Assembly: GCA_037951105.1 (NCBI GenBank)
Contig: JBAMJV010008409.1
Coordinates: forward strand, 17,501 to 81,500
DNA length: 64,000 bases
Reading direction: 5' to 3'
Source of the DNA: Echinarachnius parma
Lineage: Eukaryota > Echinodermata > Echinoidea > Clypeasteroida > Echinarachniidae
Shown one piece after another: positions 41,164 to 56,200 of the stretch. Every line of letters begins with the position of its first letter. Within the stretch, counting starts at the first letter, position 1. Position numbers and translations under genes: made by a program. The notes under the pieces were generated by a model. It was given only the letters and a program-made list of their open reading frames with translations. It was not told where the DNA came from and made no database searches.

Positions 41164-41246
41164 TCATACTCTGCCATGTGATCTCTTGCCTAGTTCCTCC
41201 TGGATGTCGTCTATCACCTTGATCGCAGCGACTGGAATCCTCGTTC
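41164..41246 (-). CDS. MMUT: MMUT exon 19 (terminal)
   Basis: Completes Gly726; residues 727-752, [26 protein letters not shown] then TGA. Confidence 0.95.
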
Positions 41247-44200
41247 CTAAAAATATTAAAATCAGGGAAAATATTTACCATCATGACCCTTCTGCAATTT
41301 AACCTTCTTTATTGAAAAAGAATAAAAAAGCAAATTACTTTCCTTCACATGTAATGGTCAAACAAAATATTGAACAATTCTTCACAACATTACATAAACA
41401 TAAGGTTCAGTTTAACTATCCCCCACTCCCCACCTCCCTCCCCCGAAAACAAAATCTGCTAATAAAGGGATAACGATTATTCAATAATCATAGTTCGAAG
41501 CATTGAATAAACAAATAAATTATAACTTTCTGAAATATTCTAATACATTTGTTTTTTTGTTTTTTGACTAGATTTAAAACTAGGTCAAAGAATTTTTCCA
41601 AGAGGTACTAACCTGGTCCAAAGATGCTCTTGACCCCAGTCTCGAAGAGGAACTCGTAGTCCTGGGGCGGGATCACACCTCCAACAATCACACCAATGTC
41701 ACTGGGCGGAAAATGGAAAGAAATACAAGTTTTAAAGGAGATTCAGGTAAAATGAAGACTATTTCGAAAACGAAAACATGATCTTTTGTTAAAGCCCTTG
41801 TCACTGGATAACAATAGAGGCTTTTCGCAACCTCAACGCGGACATTTTGCGGGTCGTGTGCAAAATCGCCAACTTCCTATGGAAACAGCGGCCTGATCGT
41901 TCTTGGGTTGAAATCACCGACCGTTCTTAGGCAAAATTACGTCCGTTTTGTGCGACCGCCAATCAGGCAACAACCTATCAGCGCGCTCGCTGCTCGTAGC
42001 GAGGTCAAACGTTCATCACTATCGCTCGCACGTGCTGCCAGCTGAAACGATTCGAGTCTACGTCCGAGTTCCCTGAATTGCGAAACTGCTTGTAAGCGAG
42101 AGTTGTTTGAGCGCGGCGGACGTACCAATAGATCGTTCCTGCGTCGCTGAAAGCCGGGTACGTCGCTGAGCGAAAACACTCTATTAACCCGTTGCTTACA
42201 GGAACCGGTTGGGCTATGTACAAAGTCTATGGGGATTTCAGAATCTCGTAATGAACGGGTTATAAACAGACGCCCAACAGAGAGCAAAGTTGTCAATCCG
42301 TTCGTCTCTGTTCGTAAACGTTTCTTGACGATTTCTTGTCGGGCCATGTCCGTTGTTTTATATCTGGTGAAAAAGTTTTGAGCAAGCAGCAATAGTGACA
42401 ACTTTCACCCCCAGATAATTTTTGTTCGCAACTTTTGTTCTATCCATCGGACAACCACCGTTTACGCTTACTGGTGATACATGACAACACCCTAAGGAAT
42501 ACAATTTCTGCCAAGTACTCGTCTACACGTAGGATGAAAGCATACGATTTCAAAGTGTTGTTTTTCAAAGGAAATAGATGCATCGGATATCAAAACCTAC
42601 ACTTGAACTCATATATCATGATACTCCCACAAATGAAGTATGAAATGTTAAATATTTGTGACTGAAATATAGAAAAAAATTCAATTTACCCTCTTCCCAG
42701 TTCCTTCAGAGCATCAATCAGTTGAGGCACCAGCGTCTTGTGTCCCGCAGCCAGTGTGCTCACTCCGACCGCATGGACGTCAGCATCTATCGCCTGTTGG
42801 GCAACCTCACTTGGAGTCTGGTATAAGATGAACAAAGGCAAACACAAAAAGTAATATGTGGGGCTACATTAGAAATCTTTAAATCTTTTATTCAATATGG
42901 GCTTTAGCCGGTGTGCTCAGTCCAGCGATATGTACGTCAGCATCAATGGCCTGTTTGGGTAACCTCACTGAAATTAAATTATAAATGATCAACACAAAAT
43001 GTAATATGTGGGGCTAAGCAATAACACTTTTTGTGTTCTTTCATTTAATCAGTTGAGGCAAAAGAATCTTGTGGCCAGCTGCCAGTGTGCTCAGTACGAC
43101 CACAAGTACATCAGCATCTATCGCCTATTAGGTAACCTCACTTGGAGTCTGGCATAAGTTGACAAATGACAAACACGAAAAGTAATATGTGGGGCTACAT
43201 TATTTAGAAATCTTGTAGAATATGGAAAACACAATAATATCGGACAACACACCCAAGGAATATCACAGCAAGTAAAAAAGCAATTTTGGATACAATCGTT
43301 AGATTTTGAAATTGATTTCCATGACTTTATTCCTATTGTTCCTTTATTTCCTAGCATACAGCCGGTAAATTATTAAACATCATAGCGCTTCAACCCGTTC
43401 CCAAACTAGATTTGCTATCCCAATAGAGTCAATGATGAACCAACCTGGTACCCATAGGAAATGTTTTATTATATGAACAACTTTCAAAGCAAACTCAATA
43501 CGGACAAAGTGAAATTAATGTGTTGTTACAAATTTGAATAACTATTACATTTTTCTATCATGAAATTGATGACCCGCACGGATTCTATCATCAGTGGCGT
43601 AATAAGAGGATGTTTACCTGAAAGAGTGGTCCAACATCGACATCGAAGCCGAGATCGGCGAAGCTGGTAGCGACCACCTTAGCCCCCCTGTCGTGCCCGT
43701 CCTGACCCATCTTGGCAACCAAGAGGCGCGGCCTGCGCCCCTCCTTCTCTTGAAACTCCTGTGGGGTTTGGGGGACAATCAATGAATTCAAGAAATGTTT
43801 AACAACTACACAAACAGAACTGCAGTTTTACCATGATTTCAAGGACATATTTTATGGTCTTCTGAGCAATTTTAGATGTTGCCATCCCTCCGACGTGCCA
43901 ATCCTGACCCATCATAGCAACAGAAAGGCGCGGTCTGCGCCCCTCCTTATCTTGAAACTCCTGTGGGGTTTGGGGGACAATTAATTAATTCAAGACATTT
44001 TTACAACTGCTGAAACAGAACTGTTCATGATTTCAAAACATCAAAACCATTATTTCTAGGACATCCTTTATGGTCTTCTGAGCAATTTTTGATGTTGCCA
44101 TCCCTCTTATCGTGCCAATCCTGACCCATATTGGCCACCAAGATGCGCGGCCTGCGCCCCTCCTTCATTTGAAACATTTACAGGGTTTGCACAAAATGAA

Positions 44201-53200: not shown

Positions 53201-56200
53201 CCCGATGCCCCAGAAGAAGGAGAGACGGGGAGCGAACTTGTCTATGTCCATTCCGGCCTTGAGACCTAAATTTGTATGGAAAGAAAAATGTTGCATAATA
53301 CTTTTGAGAGACAAAATCAATCACAAAGTCATAAGACAGAAAACAAAGGTAAAAGACATTATGGAGAAAGTAAGGGAATCAAAATGGAGATGAGCTGGGC
53401 ATGTAGCAAGACTACAGGACAATAGATGGACACATCGTTTAACAGAGTGGCAACCAAGGAAGGGAAAGAGAAGAGGGAGGCAAAAGAAAAGATGAGAGAT
53501 GAAATAACATCATACATGGGAACGGCCGCGGGGCCCAAGATAGCTAGAGACAGAAGAGAATGGAAATGTCATGAGGAGGGCTTTGTCCGTTTGGATGAAC
53601 CAACCAACCAACCAACCAACCAACCAACCAACCAACCATCTATTTCACATACATATCCACTCATCCATCTATTCTATCTATCGGATATCCATGCATACAT
53701 CCATCATTCCATCTATCCATCCATCCATCCATCCATCCAACCATCCATCCATCTATTTTATCTATCCATGCATCTATCCATCACTCAATCATTTGTCTCA
53801 CCTGTCCTGCAGTACTCCAGTCCGTCTGCTATTGTGAAGGCAAGCTCAAGTATCGTGTCTGCTCCTGCCTCTTGCATGTGGTACCCAGAGATGGAGATGG
53901 AGTTGAACTTGGGCATGTGCTGTGGTAAAAGAAAAGAAAAATACATTTGATTTACTTCTGTTTGCAATAAGTTTAGAAAGATCAGGGCAAATTGTCTTTG
54001 ATTCACTTGTCTTTGATTCCATTGTATTTAGAGTACAAGATAATTTTGTTTTTAAAGTAATTTTTTTACAGAATACCTTCAAGAAATGCAATAACATCAT
54101 CACATAATCTCTGAAGGTTCCACTGCGAAGAATAACTTAATAAATAATTCTCATTGAAGGCTCTGGTGGGTAGATGTAGGTGTTCCTCACCATGCACTCC
54201 TTGAGAATATCATTTGATTTCTTTCACTGAACACCAACAAAAAATGCAATTACATCATCTTTTTCATCATAAACCCTACTTTAATAAAAAAATGATATAC
54301 TATCTCACCTGTGAGGTATAGCTGAAGATGTCGCCAATAATTCTCATTGAAGGCTCTGGTTGGTAGATGTAGGAGGTTATCGCTCTGAGTGGTGCTAGTT
54401 AGCTACTCTTGTTTTACTCTCTGACCAATGCACATGTTACCAGCACGCTCAGCATCATCTTCCTAATTATTCTTACCTGTGAAGTGTAGCTGAAGAATGA
54501 TGTAGGTATTCCTCACCATAAACTCCTTGAGGATGTCATTCTGAGTTGTAACAGTCAGCTGCTCTTGCTTAACACCCGAACATCCCAATACATCACCCCC
54601 ATTTTTGTTGTTGATGCATAAAAAGAACTGTTACCAGCACACTCAGCATCTTCCTAAGTATTCTTACAATGACTACATACCCAGCCTGACATACCTGTGA
54701 AGTGTAGCTGAAGATGTCCCCAATAATTTTCATTGAAGGCTCCGGTGGGTGGATGTAGGTATTCCTCACCATGAACTCCTTGAAAATATCATTTAATTTC
54801 TTTCACTGAACACGAACAAAAAATGCAATTACATCATCTTTTTCATCATAAACCCTAATTTAATTTTGTAAATGATATACTATCTCACCTGTGAGGTATA
54901 GCTGAAGATGTCGCCTATAATTTTCATAGAGGGCTCCGGTGGGTAGATGTAGGTATTCCTAACCATGAATTCCTTGAGGATGTCATTCTGAATGGTGCCA
55001 GTCAGCTGCTCTTGCTTCACTCCCTGAACAATGCAAATAAGAATAAGGCGGACAATTAATGTCAATAAGTTATCCTGTGGAGAATTACAACCTCCCCTGT
55101 TCCACTAAAGTGTAACAATTGTGAACCATCTTTCTGCTGCATCCTTTTGTTTTATTGAGTTTAGCTTCTCAATTTCTATGTATCAACTGTATAATATAAG
55201 TTTTCAAATAATACAAAGGTACTACTGGTTTGCCAATAAATTTGAGCACTTCTTTTTTAATTTCAAACTAAGTGCACACAACAACCATTAAAACAATTAA
55301 ATTATTTCCCTGACTTCACTATTACATTTGGCAAGTCTTCTGCAATAATAACATGTTAATAGCATTTTCTTCTACATAAAAATTGCTTATTATTATTACT
55401 TGGTAAAGTATGATGAAATGATTTTTACCTGCTCCTCTGCTGCTACAATGAACATGGCCATCACTGGCAGCACGGCTCCGTTCATCGTCATGGAAACGGA
55501 CATCTTGTCCAGTGGGATGCCATCAAATAAAACCTGAAAGAAAGAAAAGATTGTCAATCATTCTCGTTTATCACCTATATCAAGACTCCACACTAACTGT
55601 TTACTCTACTAGTACTGACCTGTTCGGGCAAGTAAACTAATATTTTCAAAAATTTGAATTGCCCGCACAGAAAATTAACTTGCCCACCTACTTCTAGATG
55701 AGATTTACATGTTATGAACTACATTTTGTATTCATGTAGAGAACCAATAATTTAGTTGCCCAACCGGGCGACCAAATAAGACCATTTAGAAATTTTACTT
55801 GCCCGACATCAATGTTTACTTGCTCAAAGTGCTAGTATCAAGCCCTGCCTATATCATAATCATCAGCATTATTTACAATTAATCAAGCAAATCTTATCGA
55901 GAGTAGCAACTAGAGTCAGGAACTATTCAAATCGTATGGACTCAAATTGGTTTTATGTTAAATCAATTGAAAAACTTACTGAAACAGATCTTGTATGAGT
56001 GTAATGTATCTTATAGTGATACATCAGTTTAATTGATAAAAGGTGCTGGTAAAGTGTATTTTAATACTGATCTAAAAAATTCATGGTCATAATGTTCAGA
56101 ATTATTTAAACATTTTAAAGTAAAAATATGACAAGTCATTTTTTCAGATAAAATGGACAAGTATTATGTCAAAAATAAGGAGAGAATTTTTCTTTGTTAC

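Follow-up and report, generated by a model that had tools for sequence, protein, structure and literature searches.

Why should an intact housekeeping gene carry so many damaged likenesses of its own exons within its introns? The locus that raises this question lies in a 64,000-nucleotide stretch of the Echinarachnius parma genome (contig JBAMJV010008409.1, positions 17,501 to 81,500; hereafter the window), which holds an intact sea-urchin MMUT gene on the minus strand (41164..62738). Its 19 coding exons join to 2259 nt that translate to 752 amino acids without an internal stop, and the best homologue among the matches listed is Strongylocentrotus purpuratus MMUT, at 89%. The exon numbering given in an earlier note on this DNA fits, provided that exon 1 is included. 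In the adjacent introns we observe 18 sense-strand copies, 17 clear and one weak, of exons 7, 10, 11, 13, 14, 16, and 17 (Table 1). These are very probably pseudogenic exons produced by repeated local tandem duplication, at spacings of about 120-600 bp, in a duplication-rich sea-urchin genome, and we assign them no function in MMUT.

Table 1. MMUT exons and exon copies in the window (positions are those of the window)
Feature	Position	Strand	Remarks
MMUT exon 1	62738-62673	-	
MMUT exon 2	59801-59670	-	
MMUT exon 3	58907-58776	-	
MMUT exon 4	57862-57756	-	
MMUT exon 5	56329-56251	-	
MMUT exon 6	55533-55429	-	
MMUT exon 7 (parent)	54889..55023	-	donor gtgaga; gtatga in second locus
Exon 7 copy C1	54695..54805	-	AG acceptor (unscored), in-frame TGA directly after; good donor gtatgt
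Exon 7 copy C2	54477..54582	-	acceptor gone, internal deletion, strong donor gtaaga
Exon 7 copy C3	54309..54420	-	weak acceptor, internal deletion, in-frame TAG, parent-like donor gtgaga
Exon 7 copy C4	54143..54226	-	acceptor side retained; 3' end and donor absent
MMUT exon 8	53919-53802	-	
MMUT exon 9	53265-53054	-	
MMUT exon 10 (parent)	52493..52669	-	
Exon 10 3'-end copy	52373..52405	-	33 bp, 88%, downstream of parent
MMUT exon 11 (parent)	51865..51948	-	
Exon 11 copy	51391..51454	-	78%, downstream; relaxed alignment spans whole exon (51486-51382)
Exon 11 second copy, weak	51182..51209	-	score 34
MMUT exon 12	50970-50865	-	
Exon 13 5'-part copy B	50347..50460	-	95.6%, upstream; strong acceptor, no donor
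MMUT exon 13 (parent)	50082..50218	-	
Exon 13 3'-tail copy	48048..48099	-	donor side included, downstream
MMUT exon 14 (parent)	46720..46794	-	GC donor; 3' end resembles array units
134-bp minisatellite	45757..46442	-	exon 14 3' end x5
MMUT exon 15	45387-45235	-	
Exon 16 5'-part copy c2	44102..44175	-	upstream; acceptor gone
Exon 16 5'-part copy c1	43886..43960	-	upstream; acceptor intact, no donor
MMUT exon 16 (parent)	43618..43758	-	
Exon 17 5'-part copy c1	43047..43148	-	upstream; 2 stops
Exon 17 5'-part copy c2	42906..42969	-	upstream
MMUT exon 17 (parent)	42690..42817	-	
MMUT exon 18	41701-41613	-	
MMUT exon 19	41246-41164	-	

The 17 clear copies come from a search of the exons against the exon-masked window. 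Together with the weak one they agree with what the earlier note had listed: at least seven exons with decayed copies in adjacent introns (four copies of exon 7, one of exon 10, two each of exons 11, 13, 16, and 17, and five 3' ends of exon 14), all on the coding strand. One detail needed correction, in that the exon 13 copy described there as nearly intact is missing its donor. Chance was gauged for 18 of the 19 exons (exon 2 as its last 93 bases) against adjacent introns, or 1000 bp of flank at the gene ends, using 100 dinucleotide shuffles per exon-intron pair. The seven named exons score 43-203, far above the shuffle maximum of 30 over all exon-intron pairs, so the matches exceed the level expected from shuffled sequence. 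The weak exon 11 copy (51209-51182) scores 34, which none of 500 shuffles reach (maximum 30). A signal from exons 8 and 9 in their shared intron scores 25, against shuffle maxima of 20 and 24, and is taken as chance. No antisense exon copies were found in adjacent introns, where antisense scores are at most 22, exon 1 has no copy within 400 bp, the range tested for it, and an Rfam search gave no match.

The placement of the pieces bears on how they arose. In all six clear one-sided cases (exons 10, 14, 16, and 17, and the 5' piece and tail of exon 13), every 5' piece sits on the upstream side of its parent exon and every 3' piece on the downstream side, which is what tandem duplication with a breakpoint inside the exon requires. 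Flanking intron was duplicated together with the exon pieces, and the units of exons 14 and 16 follow one another head-to-tail without a gap. The pieces show the same-strand orientation and the head-to-tail arrangement that mark local tandem duplication. Mostly, one end of the copied stretch falls inside an exon; the parent stays complete, and an extra 5' piece comes to lie on its upstream side or an extra 3' piece on its downstream side. Duplication of the whole exon is seen for exon 7 and perhaps exon 11. The exon 7 Ser and exon 17 Gln are residues common to copy and parent that eight other echinoderms lack, so S. purpuratus and Diadema would be expected to be without these particular copies and to have others of their own. 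The different periods and the nested history of exon 7 rule out one single event, and with the placement and the head-to-tail units they support the repeated, separate duplications that had been proposed. The idea that the exon 13 pieces abut exactly, as from one event, was dropped because relaxed scoring gives a six-base overlap. The breakpoint junctions of the copies are mostly decayed in appearance. It is very unlikely that short nearby sequences were instead patched into double-strand breaks during repair: the copies do fit, in length and distance, the class of captured sequences characterized in the cited part of PMC2671141 (mean 162 bp, maximum 619 bp, under 5 kb), but inverted copies are absent, the 5'-upstream and 3'-downstream rule holds in six of six clear cases, and the exon 14 and 16 units adjoin head-to-tail.

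A second MMUT locus in the same assembly is collinear with the window from 23.5 to 63.1 kb (24 aligned blocks, 3.1% mismatches over 30.4 kb), and the two loci most likely represent two haplotypes. All seven exons are copied in the second locus too, in partly different numbers. Including the parent, the window and the second locus have, respectively, five and eight of exon 7, two and four of the exon 13 5' piece, three and two of exon 16, three each of exon 17, two each of exons 10 and 11, and one and two of exon 5; the exon 14 array has five and four units excluding the parent. Copy number is therefore unequal for exons 5, 7, 13, 14, and 16. An assembly that appears to hold both haplotypes (1.2 Gb, 14790 contigs) is one in which false duplications can occur, and misassembly had been named in advance as a finding that would overturn the observation. 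That uncollapsed haplotypes or misjoined reads account for the copies is nonetheless barely credible, since the copies are partial, a second contig with 3.1% mismatches has the same exons copied, and 12 of the 17 clear copies show 9-22% divergence from the parent exon (for both exon 13 pieces and three of the short exon 14 ends the figure is 0-5%). A further candidate, a family in intron 1 (59825-60653), lies within a 2.5-kb stretch missing from the second locus and so may be part of an insertion; it was rejected as an exon copy, though counted in the family tests below.

None of the 16 copies scored for splicing combines two usable splice sites with an open frame, as mutually exclusive exons would need to in every copy (the second exon 11 copy and the fifth exon 14 end were omitted from scoring, and the acceptor of C1 was located but not scored). 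Each of the 17 clear copies has at least one stop, frameshift, truncation, or lost splice site. The copies are pseudogenic exons: exon copies in the surroundings of their own gene that have lost coding ability. There is a hint that some once coded, because the exon 7 copies differ from their parent mainly at third codon positions (C1 10/12, P=0.004; C4 P=0.008; C2 P=0.03) and an exon 11 copy has a similar excess (P=0.026); the pattern is unremarkable in the other 7 of 11 copies tested, including those of exon 17 (P=0.67, 0.63). Exon 7, and perhaps exon 11, might accordingly have had alternately spliced tandem duplicates that later died, and the donors of C1, C2, and C3 (8.6, 12.8, and 11.9) do score within the range of real donors (7.0-13.4). 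We consider this unlikely: C1 opens with an in-frame TGA, C3 has a TAG, C2 has no acceptor, the copies of exons 10, 13, 14, 16, and 17 are one-sided pieces, and gene conversion from the parent could yield the same third-position pattern. With its AG acceptor, good donor, and immediate in-frame stop, C1 could also be imagined as a poison exon that would lower MMUT output when spliced in, but such a regulatory role is highly improbable given that copy number and sequence are unequal between the two MMUT loci and that similar debris occurs in other genes.

Dead pseudogenic exons may still take part in sequence exchange. In the second locus, the 70 bp of intron after exon 7 are identical (70/70) between the functional exon and copies b2 and b4, while the exon 7 flanks of the two functional exons, one in each locus, match at 60/65 with 10 gap columns. 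Upstream of exon 13 in that locus, P_alt and a2 match at 42/42, against 33/41 between functional exons. At exons 7 and 13, then, the copy resembles the functional exon of its own locus more closely than the functional exons of the two loci resemble each other, which is the mark of concerted evolution. We also observe mosaics in which an old exon part is joined to an identical flank, and exon 13 copy B of the window carries the same Q-E-H-V variant as the functional exon 13 of the second locus. In the second locus, it thus looks from these alignments as if sequence has been exchanged between copies and functional exons, at the exon 7 donor side and in three exon 13 amino acids, and gene conversion or unequal exchange could be the means. 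Exon 16 of that locus does not follow suit: the copy is no closer (53/59, against 56/59 between functional exons), and the case for it as a conversion product is weak (56/59 vs 52/59 identity to the window's exon) and was set aside. The mosaics favor exchange, but recent re-duplication, rather than conversion, may also lie behind the identities. Copies in the window show no clearly greater likeness to their parent than one functional exon shows to the other, which counts against our preferred explanation. No concerted evolution is seen within the window locus at exons 7, 13, and 16. There the parent and C3 match in the exon 7 flank at 64/69 with 2 gap columns, about equal in identity to the functional pair, and parent and copy match at 31/42 for exon 13 (functional pair 33/41) and 52/59 for exon 16 (functional pair 56/59).

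The earlier note knew of no other housekeeping gene with so many exon duplications, and this part of its interpretation is not supported, although repeated tandem duplication is. In seven other housekeeping genes of this genome, 14 exons were compared, of which eight (two of them weakly) have a copy within 400 bp, a count that is unchanged with stop-trimmed intervals, compared to 5/19 MMUT exons and 95/589 random segments; moreover, pseudogenic exons are a class described in PMC2718932. Over all exons tested, 13/33 have a copy (P=0.0017 vs random and 0.047 vs GC-matched segments). Chaperonin, tRNA-synthetase, and aconitase genes have exon copies at similar or higher frequency. A protein-family yardstick, which was set aside, detects only near-intact copies; by it, copies occupy 1/18 exon places for MMUT, 1/62 (doubtful) for chaperonin, 4/36 for tRNA-synthetase, and 1/7 for aconitase. 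Nor is MMUT supported as a special duplication hotspot, with 8 local families in 19.9 kb where the window outside the gene predicts 4.7 (P=0.10; two families inside a Penelope-like element omitted and two intron 1 rows merged). In the genome at large, 19 random stretches totaling 183 kb hold 40 direct local families, or 0.218 per kb. Seven of the eight MMUT families nevertheless overlap an exon (P=0.00025 or 0.004 under random placement), as do four of the five detectable via flank alone (P=0.02-0.08). This overlap exceeds the simplest neutral picture and counts against our preferred explanation of background tandem duplication. Exons probably look favored because selection holds the parent still, so that old exon copies would stay recognizable longer than intron copies, and an exon excess of this modest size agrees with duplication going on throughout the genome against such conserved parents. 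Since copy number is unequal between the two MMUT versions and other genes hold comparable copies, pieces of genes in this genome seem to be duplicated, lost, and rearranged on a continuing basis.

The exon copies are of a known kind, while their density and liveliness are unusual. Like the mammalian pseudogenic exons reported in the consulted sections of PMC2718932, they lie near genes as decaying local duplicates that stops and frameshifts have disabled; the mammalian ones affect 0.4-1.0% of genes, at 1.3-2.0 per gene, with about 12-22% on the opposite strand, whereas here one gene has 18 copies of seven exons, none inverted, with similar copies in other genes and copy number unequal between loci. 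As same-strand homologues adjoining their parent they also resemble tandem exon duplications, including unannotated intronic copies (PMC9013439, PMC9741552, in the passages cited). Such duplication occurs in about 10% of animal genes, according to a 2002 study cited in PMC9013439, and homologues of at least 80% identity within the gene exist for about 2% of exonic nucleotides in human, 0.08% in fly, and 0.06% in worm (PMC9013439, PMC9741552); the MMUT copies cover 919 bases, against 2154 coding bases, a figure that comes from a different search program and omits exon 1 and the first part of exon 2. Intron gain by tandem duplication, as outlined in PMC4974935, likewise has one exonic and one intronic duplication end, but here no new intron is evident and the extra piece remains within the old one. 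Newt Nav1.4, in the portion of PMC8476164 cited, shows gene conversion, with sequence passing between a working exon and its tandem duplicate, though both partners there are expressed exons and one here is dead. Dscam exon arrays are described in the cited part of PMC3236188 as without gene conversion. The sea urchin Sp185/333 cluster, as presented in the cited part of PMC5103432, shares repeat-rich, duplication-prone DNA and differences between clusters that may be allelic, but it is an immune gene family with segmental duplications of 4.2-4.6 kb, and here single exons of housekeeping genes are involved.

A bolder reading, which we offer tentatively and lean against, is that such exon echoes form a genome-wide living system, in which dead pieces beside a large fraction of coding exons are continually made, lost, and homogenized, and pass sequence back into functional exons. 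Dead copies would then be local reservoirs of coding and splice-site variation in ordinary housekeeping genes, as at exon 13 amino acids 498, 500, and 501 and at the exon 7 donor. Should echoes adjoin a large fraction of exons and be gained and lost from one haplotype to the next, the genes of sea urchins would be steadily supplied with partial copies of their own exons. Gene annotation would have to reckon with false exons, and the study of allelic variation with arrays and with coding exons that may contain conversion tracts; the lengthening of introns, and selection's tolerance of duplications that cut into exons, would also be concerned. Exons could then also be used as markers to measure how local duplications arise and decay, since a copy can be dated against its conserved parent.

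The parent MMUT gene lies on the minus strand in 19 coding exons, two of which, 2 and 14, have GC donors. Its joined frame of 2259 nt runs without an internal stop, so it is intact. Its protein is 89% identical to that of Strongylocentrotus purpuratus, 87% to that of Diadema and 81-82% to those of three other aligned echinoderms; the window is thus from a sea urchin. A long CATCAC-type repeat immediately follows exon 2's GC donor and aligns unevenly between the two MMUT loci of this assembly. About 2.5 kb of intron 1, possibly a transposon, is missing from the second locus, and a motif, GTAACGGAAGGAC, occurs 9 times in this intron, its repeats ~600 bp apart. 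Outside any gene found, there is a 437-bp tandem duplication (92%).

Searching each of 18 MMUT exons against the exon-masked window, with most pairs then aligned, matched the total of 18 decayed intronic copies claimed in the earlier note: four of exon 7 (C1-C4), one of exon 10, one plus a weak one of exon 11, a 5' piece (B) and a 3' tail of exon 13, five 3' ends of exon 14 inside a 134-bp minisatellite, and two each of exons 16 and 17. These seven exons score 43-203; the shuffle maximum is 30 across all 36 exon-intron pairs (100 shuffles each), and no antisense score in the exon-intron comparison exceeds 22. Exons 8 and 9 reach a marginal 25 against the intron they share (shuffle maxima 20 and 24), and exon 1 has no copy within 400 bp. 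Copies at ≥80% identity cover 919 bases, compared with 2154 coding bases searched.

When one end of a tandem duplication falls inside an exon, the exon stays intact and the extra piece must be either 5' sequence on its upstream side or 3' sequence on its downstream side. Such placement is found in 6/6 clear cases (exons 10, 14, 16 and 17, and the 5' piece and tail of exon 13), a count that leaves out the exon 11 copy, which is alignable across the whole exon. Flanking intron was duplicated together with exon 16 (53/60 intron bases identical), exon 17 (65/77) and exon 7 copy C3 (99/107), and the array unit matches the end of exon 14 at 51/51 bases. The history of exon 7 is nested: the parent gave C1, and the pair of parent and C1 then gave C3 and C4. 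A MITE-like element with inverted ends lies between exon 14 and its array, and a related inverted copy is found elsewhere in the window.

The parent and C1-C3 share a Ser in exon 7 where 8/8 other echinoderm proteins have another residue, and the parent and copy c1 of exon 17 share a Gln where 8/8 have Glu; these copies thus arose after the lineage separated from S. purpuratus and Diadema, unless the residues were spread by conversion. At another exon 7 position C3 and C4 carry Arg, as do 5/8 other echinoderm proteins, and the parent and C1 carry Lys.

None of the 16 copies scored for splice sites, with matrices built from the gene's own sites, combines both sites with an open frame. C1 has a donor (8.6) and an AG acceptor, located rather than scored, followed by an in-frame TGA; C3 has an in-frame TAG, an acceptor of 3.0 (weakest real 3.4) and a donor of 11.9; C2 has lost its acceptor; and exon 13 B and exon 16 copy c1 have acceptors (9.8 and 10.9) and no donor. 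Differences between C1 and the parent fall mostly at third codon positions (10/12, P=0.004), with a like excess in C4 (P=0.008), C2 (P=0.03) and the exon 11 copy (P=0.026), P values that are uncorrected for 11 tests and come in part from mutually non-independent exon 7 copies. The excess is absent in the other 7/11 copies tested, the two exon 17 copies among them.

In our search of the animal's own genome (1.2 Gb, 14790 contigs; only best candidates scored), at least one further MMUT locus was present among the best candidates. Between window positions 23.5 and 63.1 kb the two loci are collinear, aligning in 24 blocks (82-98% identity, 3.1% mismatches over 30.4 kb aligned), and the frame of the second locus is intact, with nine amino-acid differences from the window's MMUT and 6, 5 and 51 nucleotide differences by codon position. 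We take it as the other haplotype, less probably a recent paralogue. Chaperonins and tRNA synthetases likewise occur as gene pairs on two contigs. This presumed haplotype carries copies of all seven echoed exons. Its exon 16 encodes E612W through a two-base change (Glu in 7/8 other echinoderm proteins), either a real variant or a sequencing error. In intron 13, the window has an inverted pair that is the remnant of an element, with a target-site duplication of 12 bp; the second locus is without the insertion. From a GIY-YIG-like peptide we take the remnant to be a Penelope-like element, a Pfam search of it gave no match, and its insertion appears to be a recent polymorphism.

Positions in the window unless a contig is named, and copy numbers (window/second locus, parent counted unless stated)
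Feature	Position	Strand	Copies
MMUT exon 1	62738-62673	minus
Second MMUT locus	C13096:57691-79115
Second-locus exon 16 (L012)	C13096:76519-76659
Intron 1 stretch missing from second locus	59827-62326
Intron 1 motif	59840-61954
CATCAC-type repeat	58977-59661
Related inverted MITE-like copy	56393-56634
Inverted-pair remnant, intron 13	48113-49712
MITE-like element	46433-46697
437-bp tandem duplication	20608-21459
Aconitase-family array (L038)	C10025:65241-66161
Exon 5			1/2
Exon 7 family			5/8
Exon 10 family			2/2
Exon 11 family			2/2
Exon 13 5' piece family			2/4
Exon 14 array units, parent left out			5/4 (recognised exon ends 5 and 3)
Exon 16 family			3/2
Exon 17 family			3/3
Single unequal non-exonic family	40772		3/2

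Copy number is unequal in 4/7 exon families seen in the window versus 1/7 non-exonic families in the overlap, the latter being the window's own families there. The second locus's extra exon 5 is a fresh 35-bp copy (100%), counted from exon matching, as the merge rule of the tally undercounts it.

Evidence bearing on exchange comes from exons 7 and 13. In the second locus, 70 bp of intron after exon 7, donor included, are identical between the functional exon and copies b2 and b4 (70/70); the two functional exons agree there at 60/65, with a further 10 gap columns. In their exon parts, b2 and b4 still show features of old copies, namely a 23-bp deletion, and with an identical flank beside them these copies are mosaics. 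The window's parent and C3 (64/69, 2 gap columns) are not telling for exchange. The functional exon 13 reads E-E-R-I in the window and Q-E-H-V in the second locus, changes that make up three of the nine amino-acid differences; Q-E-H-V recurs in B and in second-locus copies a1 and a2, and copy a3 has E-E-H-V. Exon bases 39 (G/C) and 47 (C/T) are found in each of the four possible combinations (parent G-C, B C-C, a3 G-T, second-locus parent C-T), which points to exchange or recurrent change. Over bases 1-114 the functional pair agree at 108/114 and either agrees with most copies at 105-111/114, so the functional pair are no more alike. We infer both the direction and the mechanism of exchange.

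Local families in 19 random stretches (183 kb) number 40 direct and 15 inverted, or 0.218 direct per kb. The window outside the gene has 10 direct families in 42.4 kb, and the MMUT gene has 8 families in 19.9 kb versus 4.7 expected (P=0.10), two within the Penelope-like element being left out and two intron 1 rows merged. In protein-family searches, four tRNA-synthetase contigs proved to carry second copies of exons, and one aconitase exon was present three times (period ~217 bp). In a fetched aconitase-family gene, the 3' part of an exon forms a ~216-bp tandem array of three copies (~92-94%).

Of fourteen control exons (nine chaperonin, three tRNA-synthetase, two aconitase), chosen without a second copy in the protein-family lists, 8/14 have a copy in sense orientation at most 400 bp away and 0/14 an antisense one; the same rule gives 5/19 MMUT exons in the window and 7/19 in the second locus. 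Stops fall in 4/14 control intervals, and trimming leaves 8/14; two of the eight copies are weak (31 and 33), and a threshold of 40 gives 6/14. Random segments (602, minus 13 of low complexity) have copies in 95/589 sense and 54/589 antisense. For all exons (13/33), P=0.0017 versus random and 0.047 versus GC-matched segments (26/115); controls alone give P=0.0007 and MMUT alone P=0.19. Seven more exons (L033-L038), fetched for an already seen copy, are left out of these counts.

The parsimonious account is that local tandem duplication runs at a high rate genome-wide and that exons are favoured in hindsight, a conserved parent keeping its copies recognisable. The roughly twofold exon excess fits this hindsight account, and targeting still has room. 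Earlier papers already describe both pseudogenic exons and the tandem duplication of exons (PMC2718932, PMC9013439), and for newt sodium channels conversion between duplicated exons has been described (PMC8476164); among the matches listed in the open-licence literature, none reports copies of this kind for housekeeping genes of a sea urchin. The unexpected part is the liveliness of these copies, in their number and their exchange.
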